64,000 nucleotides of DNA from Ariolimax columbianus. Taxonomy: Eukaryota; Mollusca; Gastropoda; Stylommatophora; Arionidae. A program made the position numbers and the translations under genes. Shown in pieces: positions 14,205 to 63,142 of the stretch; the stretch's first letter is position 1, and every line of letters begins with the position of its first letter. The notes below the pieces were generated by a model, which saw nothing but the letters and a program-made list of their open reading frames with translations, did not search any database and had not been told where the DNA came from. The DNA lies in assembly GCA_036924085.1 (NCBI GenBank), contig JAVGWX010000008.1:50017019-50081018 (forward strand). The letters are read 5' to 3'.

Positions 14205-14310
14205 AGATTGTAGCCGAGGGGGAGATCGGCGGTGTTCTTATATGGGCTGGTGTTGGAGGGGCTGCTCTACTTGCTGTTGTCATTTTGATGGTTGTGTGCA
14301 TTGTTTATAG
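14205..14310 (+). CDS. RPTP exon: transmembrane segment
   Basis: A phase 1-2 exon of 106 bp (acceptor tcttcag, donor gtgagt). It encodes IVAEGEIGGVLIWAGVGGAA followed by LLAVVILMVVCIVY. The first half is an acidic membrane-proximal linker; the hydrophobic run of about 23 residues is the single membrane helix. The split Arg codon continues into a strongly basic next exon, as expected for a type I stop-transfer. The last 30 bases together with the donor are the founder unit of a 50-bp minisatellite that fills the start of the following intron. Confidence 0.92.
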
Positions 14311-14520
14311 GTGAGTGTTTTAATACATGTCATTTCGATGGTTGTGTGCATTGTTTATAGGTGAGTGTTTTAATACCTGTCAATTTGATGGTTGTGTGCA
14401 TTGTTTATAGGTGAGTGTTTTAAAACCTGTCATTTTGGTGGTTGTGTGCTTTGTTTATAGGTGAGTGTTTTAATACCTGTCAATTTGATGGTTGTGTGCA
14501 TTGTTTATAGGTGAGTGTTT
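14281..14520. repeat. 50-bp minisatellite copying TM exon end plus donor (left part)
   Basis: About 4.8 tandem copies of a 50-bp unit. The first copy is the last 30 coding bases of the transmembrane exon plus 20 bases of intron. Every copy keeps the TTTATAG/GTGAGT junction, so donors lie at 14311 (authentic), 14361, 14411, 14461 and 14511. Copies differ by one to three substitutions. In the exon frame, extension past 14310 meets TGA at once (AGG TGA), so use of a downstream donor would truncate the protein just after the membrane helix. Confidence 0.95.
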
Positions 14521-16426
14521 TCTTCTTCTTCTTCTGCGTACACAGTCAGACAGTAACCATTATTTTCTCGAAAAAAGCGGCGGTCATCCTGAGACTCTCG
14601 CCACTACCATAGAGCTTGTCTTGCAGTTCCACTGGCAATGGCCACATCTGCTCTCTCTGATCCTCGTATGTCGGGCAGTTCTGCAGCAGATGTTCAGTGG
14701 TCATTTTACCAGTACCGCACGGGCATTCGTCGGTACACCCTATCTTCAATTTGTTGAAGAGGTGGTACCTCAGTCTGTTGTGGCCAGTGCGAAGTCTGAA
14801 GACAACGACCTGCTCTCTTCGGTTCAACTGGTAATAGGCATCGTTTTTGGTGTAACCAGTATGTTCGGTTTCCCATTTGGACATGTACCTGGCTTTGATA
14901 AGCCGTTTTGACTCTTCGTACGTCATACTGGTATCTATTTGTGGTAGCCTTGCACCTTCTTTTGCCAGTCTGTCTGCCTCCTCGTTGCCTTGGATGTTGC
15001 AGTGTGACGGAACCCACTGTACCACTACCCTTTTTGGTGCGGACTGTTGGCACAGTTTGCAGAGTGCTGCTCTTAAGTCATTAAGCTCAGTGTTTTTCTG
15101 GCTTTTTAGCGCTGTGACTACTTCGAGAGCATCTGTCAGCAGGACTATATGGCTCTCATTTTCACTGTGTGTTACCATTTCTTCCACTGCCGCCCTCAGT
15201 GCCTCTGCCTCTGCTCTGAAATTGCTCGTGTACTTACCAGTAGCGAATGACAGTGTTATTTTTCTGCCATTTGGTAGGTTCAGGAATGCTCCTGCCCCTC
15301 CGTTCTGTGTAGTGTTTGTTACAGAGCCGTCGGTGTATGCATGGGTCCAGTCCATGCTTGGGTAGCTTTTCGTTATGAAGCTTAGGGTAGTATCTCTCCT
15401 TTCTTTTTCGGTCTGGCAGTTTTTGTTTGCAATACCTGGTATATTTTCTACCACCTCTGGAAATATATCCTGCCTCCAAGTAGGTTTTCGTACAGTAGTG
15501 ATGGGTTTTGGTGTTGTTAGTGCGTTTATGGGATCTTCGTGCATCTTTGCTTTGGCTATTTCTGCAAAGTTTCTCCGCTTTAGTTTTCCAGTTCCCAAAT
15601 TGTTTAGCCTCTGGTACATTGGATGGTCCGTCAGTCTTCGGAGTTTCTCTGACTGCAGCTGGGCTCTGCAGTCTCTTCTGTCGGTCATGGATTGCAGTTT
15701 TGTAATCTTTTCAAGTTCTACAATTGGCGTTGACTTCATGCCACCAGTTATGATTCTCATAGCTTGGTTTTGAAGTTTGTTAACTTTATCGAAGTTCGCC
15801 TTCGCTGCTGTTGTCCAAGCCGCGATGCCATACTCGAGAACTGGTCTCACTCTTCCAGTGTACAGTTTCTTTAGTATGCCTTCGTCTGCTCCCCAGCTTG
15901 TGCCAGCAAGTTTCCTCATGATCGCCATTCTTTCTCTGGCTTTCATTCGGTTTCTCTCAATCTGACTTTTCCATGTCATGCGCCGATCAAATGTGACTCC
16001 CAGATAGGTTGGGTTGTCGTTTGGCTGCAGGATTTTGCCATTTAGGCTTAGTTTGGTACTTTGGGGTTTTAATGAGAGCGAGAATATTGTGCACGTGGTT
16101 TTCTCCTCGTTTATTTTGACCAGCCATGAGTTCGCCCACTCTTCCAGCGATGTTAGGGCCGTTTGCATCCGATTTCTTGCTATGGTGAGATTCTTTTCAG
16201 AGGTCCACATAGCCAGATCGTCTGCAAACATTGAGCTATGGACTCTTCTTGGTATATTCTCTGTAATATCGTTTATATATACCAGGAAGAGTGTGGGTGA
16301 CAGTACTCCCCCTTGGGGTACTCCCTGCTCGAGTGTCACCTTTTTGCTCATCTGCCCTTGTACTTGGACTCTGGCCGTTCTTTGTTTGAGGTAGTGGTTG
16401 ATCCACTTGTACATCTTCCCACAAAC
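14521..16426 (-). mobile_element. 5'-truncated RNaseH LINE inserted in minisatellite
   Basis: A minus-strand non-LTR retrotransposon insert with a 3' (GAA)n tail at 14521 and a TSD GGTGAGTGTTT at 14510-14520 and 16427-16437 (the host array is itself repeated, so TSD support is moderate). One frame is open across the whole insert from 16468 (about 14 residues are array-derived) to the natural stop at 14546, 640 codons. Seen: RT motif GVPQGGVLSP and FADD (residues 81-84); RNase H with D380 in YTDGS, E420/E422, D446 and D499; and a C-terminal CCHC-like knuckle (C582, C584, H593, C598). APE and early RT motifs are missing through 5' truncation. The intact frame implies a recent insertion. The I-type/Nimb-like clade is inferred. 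Confidence 0.92.
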
Positions 16427-16828
16427 GGTGAGTGTTTTAATACCTGTCATTTCGGTGGTTGTGTGCATTGTTTATAGGTGAGTGTTTTAATACCTGTCAT
16501 TTCGGTGGTTGTGTGCATTGTTTATAGGTGAGTGTTTTAATACCTGTCATTTTGGTGGTTGTGTGCATTGTTTATAGGTGAGTGTTTTAATACCTGTCAT
16601 TTCGGTGGTTGTGTGCATTGTTTATAGGTGAGTGTTTTAATACCTGTCATTTTGGTGGTTGTGTGCATTGTTTATAGGTGAGTGTTTTAATACCTGTCAT
16701 TTTGGTGGTTGTGTGCATTGTTTATAGGTGAGTGTTTTAATACCTGTCATTTCGATGGTTGTGTGCATTGTTTATAGGTGAGTGTTTTAATACCTGTCAT
16801 TTCGGTGGTTGTGTGTATTGTTGTCAGA
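16427..16828. repeat. 50-bp minisatellite copying TM exon end plus donor (right part)
   Basis: Continuation of the same array after the LINE. Seven exon-edge/donor copies have donors at 16478, 16528, 16578, 16628, 16678, 16728 and 16778, plus the TSD-duplicated donor at 16428. The last partial unit has lost its donor. Copies here mostly carry a GGTGG variant instead of GATGG, so right-hand units are more alike than left-hand ones, as expected if the array expanded after early divergence. Confidence 0.93.
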
Positions 16829-21930: not shown

Positions 21931-22191
21931 TCCCCTCTACTATTATTATAGTGTATATATATATATTTATTGTTTGTGCAAATATTTTAAGGAATACTTT
22001 CAATGATAAATATTTTGTTTATCAAACCTGCTTGAGGATGAATGCATTAAAGCAATGCTGCATATTGATGTTCAGGTCATATCCCAAACACCCTAATATA
22101 CTAAACTTTAAATCACATGCATAAGATATTGAATTTCTTACACCAGATGTAACAATACCTGCACTTATATCAGAATAATTCAACTTCCACA

Positions 22192-25093: not shown

Positions 25094-25275
25094 GAAGTGA
25101 GCCACCATCATTTACTAGGGATGACGATGAGACTTACAAGAATGGTATCCATGAGCCAATTTACATGAACGTCAACAACCGAAAACAAACAAGTCCTGTA
25201 CCTGTGTCAGAACTGTATGACTACATCCTGAAGAATAAAGAACAAAACTGTCAGGGTTTCATGAAGGAATTTGAG
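25094..25275 (+). CDS. RPTP exon: juxtamembrane tail and start of PTP D1
   Basis: A phase 1-0 exon of 182 bp (acceptor attccag, donor gtgact). It encodes an acidic stretch (RDDDETYKNG), a tyrosine-containing HEPIYMNVNN segment that could be a phosphorylation or docking site, then VPVSELYDYILKNKEQ and NCQGFMKEFE, the helical N-cap found at the start of receptor PTP D1 domains. The last 33 bases plus the donor have been amplified into a 64-bp minisatellite immediately downstream. Confidence 0.93.
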
Positions 25276-26035
25276 GTGACTGAATTTTGCTCTCTTAAAT
25301 ATTCCCCAAAACTGTCAGGGTTTCATCAAGGAATTTGAGGTGACTGAATTTTGTTCTCTTAAATATTCCCCAAAACTGTCAGGGTTTCATGAAGGAATTT
25401 GAGGTGACTGAATTTTGTTCTCTAAAATATTCCCCAAAACTGTCAGGGTTTCATGAAGGAATTTGAGGTGACTGAATTTTGTTCTCTTAAATATTCCCCA
25501 AAACTGTCAGGGTTTCATGAAGGAATTTGAGGTGACTGAATTTTGTTCTCTCAGATATTCCCCAAAACTGTCAGGGTTTCATGAAGGAATTTGAGGTGAC
25601 TGAATTTTGTTATCTTAAATATTCCCCAAAACTGTCAGGGTTTCATCAAGGAATTTGAGGTGACTGAATTTTGTTCTCTTAAATATTCCCCAAAACTGTC
25701 AGGGTTTCATGAAGGAATTTGAGGTGACTAAATTTTCTTCTCTTAAATATTCCCCAAAACTGTCAGGGTTTTATGAAGGGATTTGAGGTGACTGTTTGAA
25801 TTTTGTTCTCTTGTTCTCAAAACTGTCAGGGTTTCATGAAAGAATTTGAGGTCTGTTTGAATTTTGTTCTTATTCCCAAAACTGCCAGGGTTTTATGAAG
25901 AAGTTTGAATTTTGTTCTATTATTTTCAAAACTGCCAGGGTTTTATGAAGGAATTTGAGGTGACTGTTTGAATTTTGTTATCATATCCCCAAATCTGTCA
26001 GGGTTTTATGAAGGAATTTGAGGTGACTGCTAAAC
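25243..26035. repeat. 64-bp minisatellite copying JM/D1 exon end plus donor
   Basis: About 12-13 copies. The first unit is the last 33 coding bases of the preceding exon followed by 31 intron bases. Period is exactly 64 through about nine units (donors at 25276, 25340, 25404, 25468, 25532, 25596, 25660, 25724, 25788), then the units shorten and degrade. Each full unit repeats GAATTTGAG/GTGACT. Reading on from the exon frame, the second unit brings a TGA stop (GGA ATT TGA) just before its donor, so downstream donor use would end the protein before the catalytic core. Confidence 0.95.
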
Positions 26036-27619: not shown

Positions 27620-27707
27620 GAACTTCCAATGGGCTTGCTTGCACTCTGTGATGTGGCTCGGAGACAAGAGAACAAAGTCAAGAACAGATATGGAAATATT
27701 GTTGCCT
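27620..27707 (+). CDS. RPTP exon: D1 KNRY motif
   Basis: A phase 0-1 exon of 88 bp; acceptor atcaacag, donor gtgagt. It encodes ELPMGLLALCDVARRQENKV and then KNRYGNIVA. KNRY is the phosphotyrosine-recognition loop signature of classical PTPs, where the Tyr sets pocket depth. With the previous exon it forms EFEELPMG, the family-typical lead into D1. Confidence 0.94.
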
Positions 27708-33697: not shown

Positions 33698-33774
33698 ATG
33701 ATCATTCTCGTGTCATTCTGGACCCTCTACCCAATGAGCCTCACTCAGATTATGTCAACGCCAACTTTATGGAT
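33698..33774 (+). CDS. RPTP exon: D1 HSRVIL and DYVNANF motifs
   Basis: A phase 1-0 exon of 77 bp; acceptor attgcag, donor gtaagt. It encodes DHSRVILDPLPNEPHSDYVN followed by ANFMD. The split codon with the preceding exon gives Tyr, making YDHSRVIL. DYVNANFMDGY corresponds to the conserved DYINASxIDGY core strand of PTP domains. The intron before it is 6.0 kb and contains the CR1-like LINE. Confidence 0.94.
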
Positions 33775-35036: not shown

Positions 35037-35073
35037 GGGTATTCAAGACCAAAGACATACATTGCTTCACAAG
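35037..35073 (+). CDS. RPTP micro-exon: D1 YIASQG motif
   Basis: A 37-bp exon, phase 0-1. It encodes GYSRPKTYIASQ and the first base of a Gly codon that completes in the next exon (GP). YIASQGP is the conserved YIATQGP motif of PTPs. The donor is the weak gtattatc, but frame and motif leave little doubt. The acceptor is tttttcag. Confidence 0.9.
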
Positions 35074-36598: not shown

Positions 36599-36696
36599 GT
36601 CCTAATAAAGTGATGATACGAGACTTCTGGAGAATGGTCTGGCAGCAGAAAGTGTCCAAGCTTGTCATGCTGACAAATCTTATGGAGGCTTGCAAG
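36599..36696 (+). CDS. RPTP exon: D1 DFWRMVW motif
   Basis: A phase 1-0 exon of 98 bp with acceptor ttgaag (weak pyrimidine tract) and donor gtattt (weak). It encodes PNKVMIRDFWRMVWQQKVSK and LVMLTNLMEACK. DFWRMVW and the VMLTNL strand are hallmarks of the PTP fold. Two consecutive weak donors (here and the micro-exon) suggest possible skipping. Skipping both exons removes 135 bp (45 codons), which would keep frame but delete the domain core. Confidence 0.93.
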
Positions 36697-41855: not shown

Positions 41856-41975
41856 AAAAAGTGTGAGCAGTATTGGCCAGATGAGGGTAGTCAGAAGTAT
41901 GGCGATTTGACAGTTCTGTTAGTGAACACAACCAAATATACAGATTTCATTATCAGGACTTTTGAGCTGATGAAG
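41856..41975 (+). CDS. RPTP exon: D1 KCEQYWP motif
   Basis: A phase 0-0 exon of 120 bp; acceptor atttcag, donor gtaatg. It encodes KKCEQYWPDEGSQKYGDLTV and LLVNTTKYTDFIIRTFELMK. The CxxYWP segment and the following beta strands match the middle of PTP D1. It follows, by only 40 bp, the (ATT)-rich end of a family A repeat. Confidence 0.94.
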
Positions 41976-43930: not shown

Positions 43931-44082
43931 GAAATGGAGAACAGCAGAATTGTCAAACAGTTTCACTTCACCACCTGGTCAGACCACGGAGCCCCCACAT
44001 ACCCAACCACGTTGTTGTCCTTCAGGAGAAAGGTCATGAACTTCAAGCCAGAGGATACAGCTCCTATACTCTCACACTGCAG
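43931..44082 (+). CDS. RPTP exon: D1 WPD loop and start of P-loop
   Basis: A phase 0-2 exon of 152 bp; acceptor cctgcag, donor gtagga. It encodes EMENSRIVKQFHFTTWSDHG, APTYPTTLLSFRRKV and MNFKPEDTAPILSHC. WSDHG is the WPD loop with Ser in place of Pro; the general-acid Asp is retained. The exon ends in the catalytic HCS triplet, Cys being the nucleophile, with the Ser codon split by the intron. D1 is therefore predicted active. Confidence 0.95.
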
Positions 44083-47923: not shown

Positions 47924-48059
47924 TGCTGGCATAGGCCGTACTGGAACCTTCATAGCACTCAACTATCTGTTAGAGCAAGCCACAGCCGAGAATGTTGTAG
48001 ATGTACTCAGATGTGCACAGCTGATGCGAGCAAACCGAGTCAACATGATTCAAACTCTA
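47924..48059 (+). CDS. RPTP exon: D1 P-loop SAGIGRTG
   Basis: A phase 2-0 exon of 136 bp; acceptor atttccag, donor gtaagt. Spliced to the previous exon it completes HCSAGIGRTG, the PTP signature loop with its invariant Arg. It continues with TFIALNYLLEQATAENVVDV and LRCAQLMRANRVNMIQTL, the helix leading to the Q-loop. The following intron begins with the 57-62 bp minisatellite. Confidence 0.96.
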
Positions 48060-48235
48060 GTAAGTACAAAAACATAGATTGTAACGGAGTTTATAAATAA
48101 TGAAATGAATGATTTTGGCCAGTCATGTGGTTGGGAAATTTAGTTTCAAACATAATCTTCTGCATTCTTCCCTGAAAAGAAATCTGATAAATGTCCGTTA
48201 TCTTTTCTATTATTCATATCCATCTATGAATTTCA

Positions 48236-49095
48236 ATGTCTGTCTGTATTTTGCATGATCCACAACCTTCTACAATCATTCATCCATCTTTTCATTTTCT
48301 CTGTATTTTGCATGATCCACAACCTTCTACAATCATTCATCCATCATTTCATTTTCTATGTCTGTATTTTTGCATGATCTACAACCTTCTAAAATCATTC
48401 ATCCATCTTTTCATTTTCTCTGTATTTTGCATGATCCACAACCTTCTACAATCATTCATCCATCATTTCATTTTCTATGTCTGTATTTTTGCATGATCTA
48501 CAACCTTCTAAAATCATTCATCCATCTTTTCATTTTCTCTGTATTTTGCATGATCCACAACCTTCTACAATCATTCATCCATCATTTCATTTTCTATGTC
48601 TGTATTTTGCATGATCTACAACCTTCTAAAATCATTCATCCATCTTTTCATTTTCTCTGTATTTTGCATGATCCACAACCTTCTACAATCATTCATCCAT
48701 CATTTCATTTTCTGTGTCTGTATTTTGCATGATCCACAACCTTCTATTCATTCATCTTTTCATCCCCCAGGAGTATGGGTATCTCTAATCATTTTCTGTG
48801 TCTGTATTTTGCATGATCTACAATCTTCTATAATCATTAATTCAACTTTTCATTTTCAATGTCTGTATTATGCATGATCCACAACCTTCTACAATCATTC
48901 ATCCATCATTTCATTTTCTATGTCTGTATTTTGCATGATCTACAACCTTCTATAATCATTTATTCAACTTTTCATTTTCTCTGTCTGTATTTTGCATGAT
49001 CCACAACCTTCTACAATCATTCATCCATCATTTCATTTTCTGTGTCTGTATTTTGCATGATCCACAACCTTCTATTCATTCATCTTTTCATCCCC
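48236..49095. repeat. 57-62 bp intronic minisatellite
   Basis: Roughly 14 tandem units built around TGCATGATCCACAACCTTCT, alternating between 57-bp and longer 58-62-bp versions, so the higher-order period is about 120 bp. Open frames across it are a by-product of the period and AT-rich composition. Two units (48768 and 49098) end in an acceptor-like CATCCCCCAG followed by GAGTATGGGTATCT. Unlike three other arrays in this gene, the unit is not an obvious copy of a mapped exon edge. Confidence 0.9.
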
Positions 49096-49744: not shown

Positions 49745-50434
49745 GCTGTTATGTTGCTGTTAACTGTTGTTATGTTACAGGAACAGTATGTGTTTGTGTA
49801 CAATGCTGTCAACTGTTGTTCTTATGTTACAGGAACAGTATGTGTTTGTGTACGATGCTGTCAACTGTTACTCTTATGTTACAGGAACAGTATGTGTTTG
49901 TGTAAAATGCTGTCAACTGTTGTTCTTATGTTACAGGAACAGTATGTGTTTGTGTACGATGCTGTCAACTGTTACTCTTATGTTACAGGAACAGTATGTG
50001 TTTGTGTACGATGCTGTCAACTGTTACTCTTATGTTACAGGAACAGTATGTGTTTGTGTACGATGCTGTCAACTGTTACTCTTATGTTACAGGAACAGTA
50101 TGTGTTTGTGTACGATGCTGTCAACTGTTACTCTTATGTTACAGGAACAGTATGTGTTTGTGTACGATGCTGTCAACTGTTACTCTTATGTTACAGGAAC
50201 AGTATGTGTTTGTGTACGATGCTGTCAACTGTTACTCTTATGTTACAGGAACAGTATGTGTTTGTGTACGATGCTGTCAACTGTTACTCTTATGTTACAG
50301 GAACAGTATGTGTTTGTGTACGATGCTGTCAACTGTTACTCTTATGTTACAGGAACAGTATGTGTTTGTGTACGATGCTGTCAACTGTTACTCTTATGTT
50401 ACAGGAACAGTATGTGTTTGTGTACGATGCTGTC
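49745..50434. repeat. 52-bp minisatellite copying acceptor plus exon start
   Basis: Thirteen acceptor copies at an exact 52-bp period, with AG ends at 49780, 49832, 49884, 49936, 49988, 50040, 50092, 50144, 50196, 50248, 50300, 50352 and 50404 (the last is the authentic one). Each unit is 22 intron bases ending TTATGTTACAG plus the first 30 bases of the next coding exon (GAACAGTATGTGTTTGTGTA onward to GCTGTC). Later units are identical; the first three carry a few substitutions. The unit has no stop in any frame. Since 52 is 1 mod 3, three units make a 52-residue in-frame repeat, and acceptors 49780, 49936, 50092 and 50248 are in frame with the real exon. Confidence 0.97.
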
Positions 50435-50551
50435 CTAGAATCTATCATGACAGGCAACACCACCATCCCACGCTCCAGCTTCCACAGTACATATGAAGAG
50501 ATGCTGTCACCCGAGAATGGTGAGAAGTCTCACATGGAGAAACAGCATGAG
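50405..50551 (+). CDS. RPTP exon: D1 Q-loop and C-terminal helix
   Basis: A phase 0-0 exon of 147 bp; donor gtaacc. It encodes EQYVFVYDAVLESIMTGNTT, IPRSSFHSTYEEMLS and PENGEKSHMEKQHE. Joined to the previous exon it reads IQTLEQYVFVYDAV, the QTxxQY motif whose Gln positions the hydrolytic water. The start assigned is the last of 13 near-identical acceptors; it is the only one that leads directly into the family-consensus sequence without extra residues. Confidence 0.94.
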
Positions 50552-52826: not shown

Positions 52827-52926
52827 GTTCTACAACGACTATCTCCGACAATAGAGAGGGAGGAATGCTCTGTGTCTCTGCAGGATGAAAACATGGCTAA
52901 AAACAGGTTTAAAAATATTTTGCCAG
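52827..52926 (+). CDS. RPTP exon: D1-D2 linker, start of D2
   Basis: A phase 0-1 exon of 100 bp; acceptor ggccgcag, donor gtaagg. It encodes VLQRLSPTIEREECSVSLQD and ENMAKNRFKNILP. NRFKNILP is the D2 counterpart of the KNRY segment; Phe replaces the pocket Tyr, as is common in low-activity D2 domains. The previous residues form the linker helix. Confidence 0.92.
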
Positions 52927-53485: not shown

Positions 53486-53559
53486 CTAACCGCAGTCGTC
53501 CCTATCTGTATACACCTGTGGAGGGTTGCAATGATTATATAAATGCTGTTTATTTATCA
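53486..53559 (+). CDS. RPTP exon: D2 DYINAVYL motif
   Basis: A phase 1-0 exon of 74 bp; acceptor gtttcag, donor gtaagt. It encodes NRSRPYLYTPVEGCNDYINA and VYLS, giving ILPANRSRPYL across the junction. DYINAVYL matches the D2 version of the DYINA strand. Confidence 0.92.
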
Positions 53560-53639: not shown

Positions 53640-54840
53640 CTAACTGACATATTTTCAACATTCCTCGCACCGTCGCCATTTTATCACGTTATGAACTGGA
53701 TCATTGCACATATGGAAACGCACATCCCAGAGGCCTCCGTCAGAACTTTGAATTTGACCAACTTTGATTATGCCGATGATGTTCTCATACCAATTTCAAA
53801 CTTTCAGATCTTGACAGGCTCCCTGGAGCACTAAGAACAGTCGGCTTCACTTTAGGGACTACACATTTCCTAGGTGAAGATCAAGATTAAAAGTCTGGGC
53901 AGTGGTCTGCTTGCAGCCAGAATCACTGTCAATGGGCAATCATGCCATTCCTACAGAGGAATCTTTCTATCTGGGCAGCAGACTGACTTATGGCAATCAC
54001 CGTCATTCCCACAGAGGAATCTTTCTATCTGGGCAGCAGACTGACTTATGGCAATCACGTCATTCCCACTGAGGAACCTTTTTATCTGGGCAGCAGACTG
54101 ACTTACGGCAATCAACGTCATTCCCACAGAGGAATCTTTCTATCTGGGCAGCAGACTGACTTATGGCAATCACGTCATTCCCACTGAGGAACCTTTCTAT
54201 CTGGGCAGCAGACTGACTTATGGCAATCACGTCATTCCCACAGAGGAATCTTTCTATCTGGGCAGCAGACTGACATGGCAATCACGTCATTCCCACTGAG
54301 GAATCTGTCTATCTGGGCAGCAGACTGACTTATGGCAATCACGTCATTCCCACTGAGGAATCTTTCTATCTGGGCAGTAGACTGACTTATGGCAATCACG
54401 TATTTCCACCGAGGAATCTATCTGGGCAGATGACTGACTTATGACAATCACGTATTTCCCACCGAGGAATCTATCTGGGCAGCGGACTGACTTATGACAA
54501 TCATGTCATTCCCACCGAGGAATCTATCTATTTGGGCGGCAGACTTACTTATGACAACATGTCATTCCGACAGAGGAATCTGTCTATCTGGCAGCGGACT
54601 GACTTGTGGCAATCACGTCATTCCCACCGAGGAATCTATCTATCTGGGGAGCAGACTGACATGGCAATCATTCAAAAGATCAGCCTTGTGACATCATTTG
54701 TGCATTCTCTACGCAGAGCCTGGTCCTAGTAGAGACTCTCCTTGGAAACCAAGCTGTGCCTGTATAGATTCTGGGTCATTCCAATCTTCTTGTACAACTC
54801 CAAGACCTGGATGGTCTTAGAGGGAGTTTACACTGATGAC
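53640..54840 (+). pseudogene. LINE RT fragment containing a minisatellite
   Basis: Reads VRTLNLTNFDYADDVLIPIS (RT YADD), then after stops the EESFYLGSRLTYGN block, which is tandemly amplified (53945-54680). It continues in shifted frames with FIKRSALASSTMRSLRRVWS-type sequence at 54670-54740 and VIPIFLYNSKTWM. Order and motifs follow the RT/post-RT region of RTE-like LINEs. Confidence 0.8.
53945..54680. repeat. ~57-bp minisatellite derived from LINE RT
   Basis: About 13 copies of CATTCCCACTGAGGAATCTT plus TCTATCTGGGCAGCAGACTG plus ACTTATGGCAATCACGT. Most units are 57 bp, that is 19 codons, so the LINE frame (HVIPTEESFYLGSRLTYGN) repeats in phase; 58-bp and shorter units break it. Units 3' of 54380 are more diverged. 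Confidence 0.93.
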
Positions 54841-56047: not shown

Positions 56048-56182
56048 GGCTACACCCAAAAAGACCAGTTCCTTGTGACCCAGATGCCCTTGCCTACAAC
56101 TGTCGCAGATTTCTGGCGAATGCTGTACGATACAACGTCAGACACAATCGTGATGCTGAACGAGTTTGACAGAAATGACAAG
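56048..56182 (+). CDS. RPTP exon: D2 DFWRMLYD motif
   Basis: A phase 0-0 exon of 135 bp; acceptor ctttag, donor gtacta. It encodes GYTQKDQFLVTQMPLPTTVA, DFWRMLYDTTSDTIV and MLNEFDRNDK. FLVTQMPLPTTVxDFWR is a very typical receptor-PTP D2 sequence (the D1 YIATQGP becomes FLVTQMP), which confirms this is the second domain and not a duplicated D1. Confidence 0.94.
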
Positions 56183-58035: not shown

Positions 58036-58188
58036 GCTCAAAGTGTCAATGCCTGGATGCAAATCCTGGTGGTAGCAGCAAATATTTCATCACCATATGG
58101 TTGCTGTGAGCTCAAAGTGTCAATGCCTGGATGCAAATCCTGGTGGTAGTAGCAAATATTTCATCACCATATGTTCGCTGCGAGCTGT
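58036..58188. repeat. ~75-bp tandem duplication
   Basis: GCTCAAAGTGTCAATGCCTG to ATCACCATATG occurs twice in a row with about three differences. The CTGGATGCAAATCCTGG core resembles a tRNA B box, so it may be a SINE head. Confidence 0.8.
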
Positions 58189-63007: not shown

Positions 63008-63142
63008 TCATGTGCCTTGTACTGGCCAGAGGAGTACGGCTACACAGAGGAGCATGGACCTCTCAGCGTGGAGCTGTTGTCATCCTCTGAAGCTGACATA
63101 GATGTCACAGTCAGGGTCTTCAAGCTCAGTCACCTTGACAAG
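63008..63142 (+). CDS. RPTP exon: D2 CxxYWPE motif
   Basis: A phase 0-0 exon of 135 bp; acceptor gttatag, donor gttaga. It encodes SCALYWPEEYGYTEEHGPLS, VELLSSSEADIDVTV and RVFKLSHLDK. The CALYWPEE motif is the D2 counterpart of the CxQYWP segment in D1. The D2 WPD loop and P-loop lie beyond the window, so D2 activity cannot be judged here. Confidence 0.93.

Follow-up and report, generated by a model that had tools for sequence, protein, structure and literature searches.

The Gene and Its Exons

The stretch of DNA analysed here (the window) is 64 kb long and belongs to an assembly of 2.29 Gb in 401 contigs, where it is found at 50.0 Mb of a contig of 97.8 Mb. It contains, on the plus strand, a gene for a receptor-type protein tyrosine phosphatase (PTP) with two PTP domains, D1 and D2, the first of which is open. 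The assignment is based on a domain with the HCSAGxGRTG signature, the tandem arrangement of D1 and D2, and a transmembrane segment recognised by eye as a hydrophobic stretch. Nine exons between 25094 and 50551 join in phase to give a D1 region of 345 residues, which matches PF00102 (E = 1.1e-81) and contains the motifs HCSAGIGRTG, KNRY, and QTLEQY. The gene, the exon, and the junction named in an earlier note on this DNA are right. The WPD loop of D1 reads WSD. So does that of the top-ranking homologue among those listed, a 344-residue protein of Lottia gigantea with 70% identity over 97%. The Branchiostoma floridae protein listed has 41% (best 120 of 1893 matches, from a search among proteins of up to about 600 residues). 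As the closest homologue found is molluscan, the organism is probably a mollusc.

The mapped features are listed in Table 1. The 13 exons of D1 and D2 are all open and their phases match. The introns between them measure 559-6825 nt, those flanking the Q-loop exon being 2345 and 2332 nt long. An exon demanded by the phases between 14310 and 25094 was not found, and among ten open frames scanned with Pfam for ectodomain exons the one match was an RNase H.

Table 1. Positions of exons, splice-site ladders, and an inserted element in the window (a slash marks a splice junction)
Feature	Position	Strand	Remarks
Transmembrane exon	14205-14310	+	Identified by its hydrophobic reading frame alone, by eye
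Donor ladder A1, block 1	14278-14521	+	5 units of 50 bp (33 exon bases, TATAG/GTGAGT, intron)
Retrotransposon fragment within A1	14522-16426	-	Reverse transcriptase and RNase H domains
Donor ladder A1, block 2	16427-16822	+	7 donors, then a last copy without donor
Exon, juxtamembrane segment and D1 wedge	25094-25275	+	Ends KEFE; homology
Donor ladder A3	25243-26029	+	64-bp units (33 exon bases, TTTGAG/GTGACT, intron) at the D1 wedge exon
D1 exons	27620-27707, 33698-33774, 35037-35073, 36599-36696, 41856-41975, 43931-44082	+	Phases consistent
Exon AGIGRTG...MIQTL	47924-48059	+	Donor gtaagt; upstream partner of ladder A2
Acceptor ladder A2	49749-50434	+	13 units of 52 bp (22 intron and 30 exon bases), the first 3 bp shorter; left edge by eye
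Q-loop exon	50405-50551	+	Starts EQYVFVYDAVLESI, phase 0, behind the exon-proximal acceptor 50404
D2 exons	52884-52926, 53486-53559, 56048-56182, 63008-63142	+	Homology

Three Ladders of Splice Sites

The earlier note had described at the Q-loop exon a 52-bp unit that spans the 3' splice site together with the exon's opening 30 bases and is repeated so that acceptor AGs fall every 52 bp from 49780 to 50404, the later units being identical. This description is confirmed by Tandem Repeats Finder (49770-50434, period 52, 12.8 copies, 98% match) and by an exact scan, in which 13 CAG/GAACAG acceptors were found with AGs ending at 49780, 49832, and so on to 50404, all twelve spacings being 52. In an ungapped comparison over 52 bp, the last nine units (5-13) are the same, units 2, 3, and 4 show 2 differences each from them, and unit 1 shows 10, which by eye are due to its 3 missing bp on the intron side. 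The 30 exon bases encode EQYVFVYDAV. The junction is flanked by two occurrences of the hexamer TGCTGT, one at 49755 in the intron and the other as part of GATGCTGTC in the exon. When the 2.29-Gb assembly was searched with the 52-bp unit, a single place was returned, namely A2 itself.

All 28 mapped junctions of the gene were scanned with 30-mers allowing up to six mismatches, and copies were found at exactly three of them: A2 and the two donor ladders, A1 and A3. In each the unit spans the exon and the intron of an authentic junction, the exons of A2 and A3 being established by homology and that of A1 by its hydrophobic frame only. The exon and intron bases per unit are 30 + 22 in A2, 33 + 17 in A1, and 33 + 31 in A3, and the splice signal is retained in 13/13, 12/13, and 11/13 copies, respectively (GAG/GTGA in A3, the distal copies of which are decayed). 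In A1, which stands where the transmembrane exon ends, the retrotransposon separates donor 5 from donor 6 and is flanked by a 12-bp target duplication (14510-14521 and 16427-16438). The two donor ladders go unmentioned in the earlier note, and in their company A2 is worth more than was stated there.

Each of the three ladders holds exactly 13 copies of its exon part, of 33, 30, and 33 bases in A1, A2, and A3. The shared count may be due to chance, because the arrays in paralogous loci (see below) have a median of 8.5 copies.

Further minisatellites lie in introns of the gene (48230-49084, with units of 57-119 bp, and 53935-54670, with units of 57 bp) and touch no mapped junction.

Products of the Acceptors in A2

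Acceptor 50404 yields the conserved protein, without an insert relative to the Lottia homologue. The acceptors 49780, 49936, 50092, and 50248, which the earlier note had considered to be in frame, indeed add 208, 156, 104, and 52 codons. The eight others of the twelve extra acceptors lead to premature stops, at 49903, 50436, or 50494. Since these stops lie upstream of further introns, the messages concerned would probably be degraded. The unit had also been taken to be free of stops in every frame. This holds for the consensus unit, but unit 3 reads GTGTAA, so that only six residues follow its acceptor (49884) before the stop codon at 49903-49905.

The openness of the unit was assessed by shuffling. 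When the exon part and the last four intron letters were held fixed and the other intron letters were shuffled, the unit was again open in 4852 of 20000 cases, compared with 90 of 20000 after dinucleotide shuffling of the whole unit. This test thus gives no support to selection for openness of the ladder, as openness has a chance of about 24% once the exon part is given.

From an insertion point directly before EQY of the Q-loop, the earlier note further argued that such isoforms would probably lose or change D1 activity. As regards an interrupted Q-loop this argument fails, because each unit restarts the exon, and every acceptor therefore regenerates QTLEQY. The ten residues behind QTL are EQYVFVY(D/N)AV for 12 of the 13 acceptors, the exception being 49884, which stops after EQYVFV. 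Apart from 49884, the first departure in sequence falls after DAV. In the model of the Lottia homologue (mean pLDDT 84) this point is inside a helix of residues 291-307, the counterpart of EQYVFVYDAV being residues 292-301. With premature stops from eight of the twelve extra acceptors, use of all 13 is not likely.

Minisatellites in Paralogues and in the Genome

A query with D1 gave 82 matches in the assembly, including paralogues with introns. Twenty paralogue loci (162.5 kb), which were picked for their phosphatase matches and are not a random sample, consist of minisatellites to 31%. From 43 exon matches in these loci, 69 junctions (29 acceptors and 40 donors) were placed automatically by a small matrix, some of them wrongly. 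Six of these junctions were automatically called as lying in arrays, and three calls, in three paralogues, were kept. L039 has a donor array, TATCAGAA/GTAAGT, with 33.2 copies by Tandem Repeats Finder and 21 further copies by a 26-mer test; L042 has an acceptor array, TCTCCAG/TATGGG, with 9.4 copies of 58 bp; and L047 has a donor array, GGGCAGG/GTATGAAG, with 7.9 copies of 167 bp, in which C and not G stands before GT where a copy was read. The calls at exon 2450-2701 of L047 and at exon 6813-6998 of L055 were dropped because the sequence shows the donor to be wrongly placed, and that at exon 4081-4203 of L055 (junction sequence not displayed) because its word recurs only twice and at irregular spacing. 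An array in L046 was rejected as a junction copy, since by eye it begins after the donor and copies no junction.

To seek splice junctions is not a general rule for arrays by these data, as the paralogues show no clear excess (3/69 versus 1.6 expected, P = 0.22). In the window, three junction hits are more than expected when the six founding units are placed randomly (P = 0.0005), and when A2 is left out the probability of at least two hits is 0.008. This placement test was restricted to arrays between 13.9 and 64 kb with a score of at least 200, a period of at least 20, and at least 3 copies; the blocks of A1 were counted once, as were the adjacent arrays at 48230 and 48789, and the arrays at 22190, with its score of 155, and at 58036, with two copies, did not enter. 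By a cruder control, in which arrays cover 108/1500 non-exonic positions of the window and 383/1200 positions of the paralogue loci, junctions are about average in the window (3/28) and depleted in the paralogues (3/69). This control, however, counts every copy and is therefore inappropriate as a null model where founding events are concerned.

Across the genome, the donor word CAGGTAAGT forms 1845 three-copy ladders versus 1011 for the word read backwards, and the acceptor word TTTTCAGGA forms 477 versus 601, overlapping matches in one array being counted separately. The simplest account of these results is that minisatellites arise in this genome in large numbers, and that some happen to include a junction and persist because splicing tolerates them.

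In L055 (5769-6803), a phosphatase exon is immediately preceded by some 36 copies of an intron unit of 29 bp, which ends in TTCCTGTATAG; the real acceptor looks by eye like a diverged last copy, and this is an acceptor ladder without exon sequence. Four phosphatase loci (L053, L054, L056, and L057) are largely tandem arrays, which make up 39 to 81% of the stretch, and one of them has about 224 copies of a 16-bp unit. On C4 of the assembly (G000), at 106.77-106.93 Mb and 110.57-110.75 Mb, seven paralogues of the phosphatase each show one uninterrupted frame of 1148-1171 residues; they match D1, and again further on, and are apparently intronless.

The Same Intron in Another Organism

A search with the ladder peptide, in which 7991 candidates were scored, gave a sole match at E ≤ 10, namely P0121 (157 residues, ENA; E = 0.05); P0122 (ENA) was found starting from P0121. 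By a constraint test on overlapping codons, the peptides of both are compatible with tandem DNA in which the unit has a constant length. For the acceptor side this length is 64 nt in both, the unit of P0122 beginning GAGCAGTATGTGTTTGTGTACGATGC; on the donor side it is 26 nt in both, with ACACAG/GTCAGT, P0121 fitting the double length of 52 as well. For the acceptor segment of P0122, and likewise for the donor segment of P0121, none of 500 shuffles fits any length tried. As decoded from these peptides, the intron at QTx/EQY carries arrays at both of its ends in the gene of another organism. A search of the window's own genome for the 64-nt unit so decoded did not recover it, the best match being A2 itself (76%).

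When 240 proteins were scanned for repeated words, only P0121 and P0122 were ladder-like, the other repeats being by eye motifs common to D1 and D2. As the search that led to the two proteins was aimed at the acceptor ladder and the donor side was not a target, it says nothing about the frequency of such arrays. Five stretches of viral contigs matched a word of P0122, none being a relative, and the exon-start pattern found nothing there. In both of these predicted phosphatases the 26-nt donor ladder reads straight into the 64-nt acceptor ladder at QTQ/EQY, as if the intron between them had been lost or left out of the prediction.

Nature of the Ladders and Choice of Splice Site

Two reports (PMC3087553, PMC3902484) describe amphioxus 'mirages', tandem repeats with units of 10-160 bp across 5' and 3' exon-intron boundaries, which differ in length between haplotypes and leave the normal mRNA undisturbed; the genes named are Adh3, the globins Gb6 and Gb9, troponin C, and PGBD5. 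With the mirages described there, the present ladders share tandem units that straddle junctions, splice signals kept in many copies, and the involvement of both donors and acceptors. The copy numbers, 13 here and about 33 in one paralogue, are higher than those reported for Gb6 (3 and 6) and PGBD5 (2-7). Unlike in amphioxus, three arrays occur in one gene, and the closest homologue found is molluscan; a cephalochordate host, which is common to the cases described there and is not defining, is not indicated here by the homologues (Lottia 70% versus Branchiostoma 41%, best 120 of 1893).

It is probable that A2 is a minisatellite of the mirage type, of which mostly the exon-proximal acceptor 50404 is predicted to be used, the other twelve copies being intron and tolerated as repeat DNA. 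Slippage or unequal exchange between short repeats, such as TGCTGT on both sides, is likely to have started A2, and the same process has probably struck the two donors of the gene and junctions of the paralogues. While the ladders are read directly from the DNA, the choice among their sites is predicted from exon definition. According to PMC9225289, sites pair across the exon when introns are long, the closest ones being preferred. Between introns as long as these, the first sites to pair would be those nearest the exon, namely 14310, 25275, and 50404, exon definition being assumed at the transmembrane exon. These exon-proximal sites give exons of 106, 182, and 147 nt, and the next choices 156, 246, and 199 nt. 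Donor 25275 and acceptor 50404 together lead to the insert-free protein with 70% identity to the Lottia homologue, a comparison that covers these two sites. Within each ladder the scores from a small position matrix are nearly equal (7.0 for all of A1; 5.7, with one copy at 4.6, for A3; 9.8-10.9 for A2), and position must therefore decide. Moreover, donors beyond the retrotransposon inside A1 would bring it into the exon, which fits exon-proximal use.

In the reporter-library results of PMC6783452, the leading donor of an equal pair is the one used, whereas order makes no difference between equal acceptors. This gives the prediction more strength at the donors than at A2, and it is at this acceptor ladder that leakage could most plausibly occur. 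Against the choice of 50404, unit 1 comes first on the transcript, has by eye a better branch point (TTAAC versus TCAAC) and a slightly higher acceptor score (10.9 versus 9.8), and is followed by 208 open codons in frame. If upstream acceptors were used at a low level, four in-frame inserts would arise, or frameshifted messages, probably removed by decay.

Should the acceptors of A2 be used more widely, the ladder would be a working generator of isoforms, extending D1 in steps of 52 residues, with frameshifted messages lowering receptor output according to array length. The 13 intact acceptors with their near-equal scores, the open frame behind every third one, the lack of order preference among equal acceptors in the reporter study (PMC6783452), and the similar open ladder encoded at the same intron of another organism are in keeping with such a generator. 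It is nevertheless unlikely, considering that eight of twelve extra acceptors give premature stops, that openness arises in 24% by chance with the exon part given, and that the amphioxus mirages leave the mRNA unchanged (PMC3087553, PMC3902484). Both donor ladders, too, read through into a stop, A1 from its first donor as IVYR-stop and A3 in its second unit; therefore, they give no sign of selection for useful isoforms.

It is more doubtful still that A2 acts as a length-tunable splicing dial. In this scheme slippage would make the count of competing acceptors vary, both inside one individual and from one individual to another, and this would set the fraction of receptor messages that are full-length, extended after the Q-loop in steps of 52 residues, or destroyed; QTx/EQY, hit independently on both sides in another lineage, would then be a recurrent hot spot.

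There is very little probability that 49780 is the main acceptor, with a 208-residue insert in the protein: it is the first AG past the sequence that by eye most resembles a branch point, in frame and open throughout, but the insert would break the helix after DAV and is absent from the Lottia homologue, and the exon would measure 771 nt instead of 147. Equally improbable is an array length produced by the assembly, or a dead gene, for nine identical units are easily miscounted, but units 1-4 are distinct from the rest, one single locus was returned in the 401-contig assembly, a retrotransposon has been inserted into A1, separate ladders occur in paralogues and in other database records, and all 13 exons mapped for D1 and D2 are open and agree in phase.

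What may on paper seem a splicing switch is thus, by sequence, most likely tolerated repeat DNA and an unusually clean test of exon definition. With 13 near-identical acceptors and, twice, eleven to twelve near-identical donors in one gene, it is a natural experiment on site choice, in which the spliceosome must go by position and exon definition where sequence cannot decide. No junction-straddling minisatellite outside amphioxus was among the matches listed in a literature search that covered few subscription papers. If the phylum is right, mirage minisatellites extend beyond amphioxus, as far as those matches show, and the present data suggest that they are a chance product of a minisatellite-rich genome. 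In such genomes gene annotation is at risk, as predictors may call ladder units exons, which P0121 and P0122 suggest.

Relation to Tandem Acceptors and Intron Gain

NAGNAG and other tandem alternative acceptors compete at one exon 3 to a few bases apart. Unlike these, the acceptors of A2 are spaced by 52 bp and carry full copies of the surrounding sequence. Alternatively spliced human introns that reportedly arose from tandem arrays (Zhuo et al. 2007, PNAS, cited in PMC3087553) may be related.

In the AGGT model, introns are gained by tandem genomic duplication, in which a duplicated AGGT proto-splice site makes a new intron. A2 was considered as such a gain and rejected: unlike in the model, it straddles an existing intron, the position of which (QTx/EQY) is shared with P0121 and P0122 from another organism, and its joint is CAG/GAAC, so that no new intron is implied. 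The units of A1, in contrast, run from GT to AG, as the model requires. Each full 50-bp unit of A1 (14310-14521 and 16427-16822) starts with GTGAGT and ends with AG beside the next GTGAGT, and by its sequence could in principle be removed singly by recursive splicing, leaving no trace.
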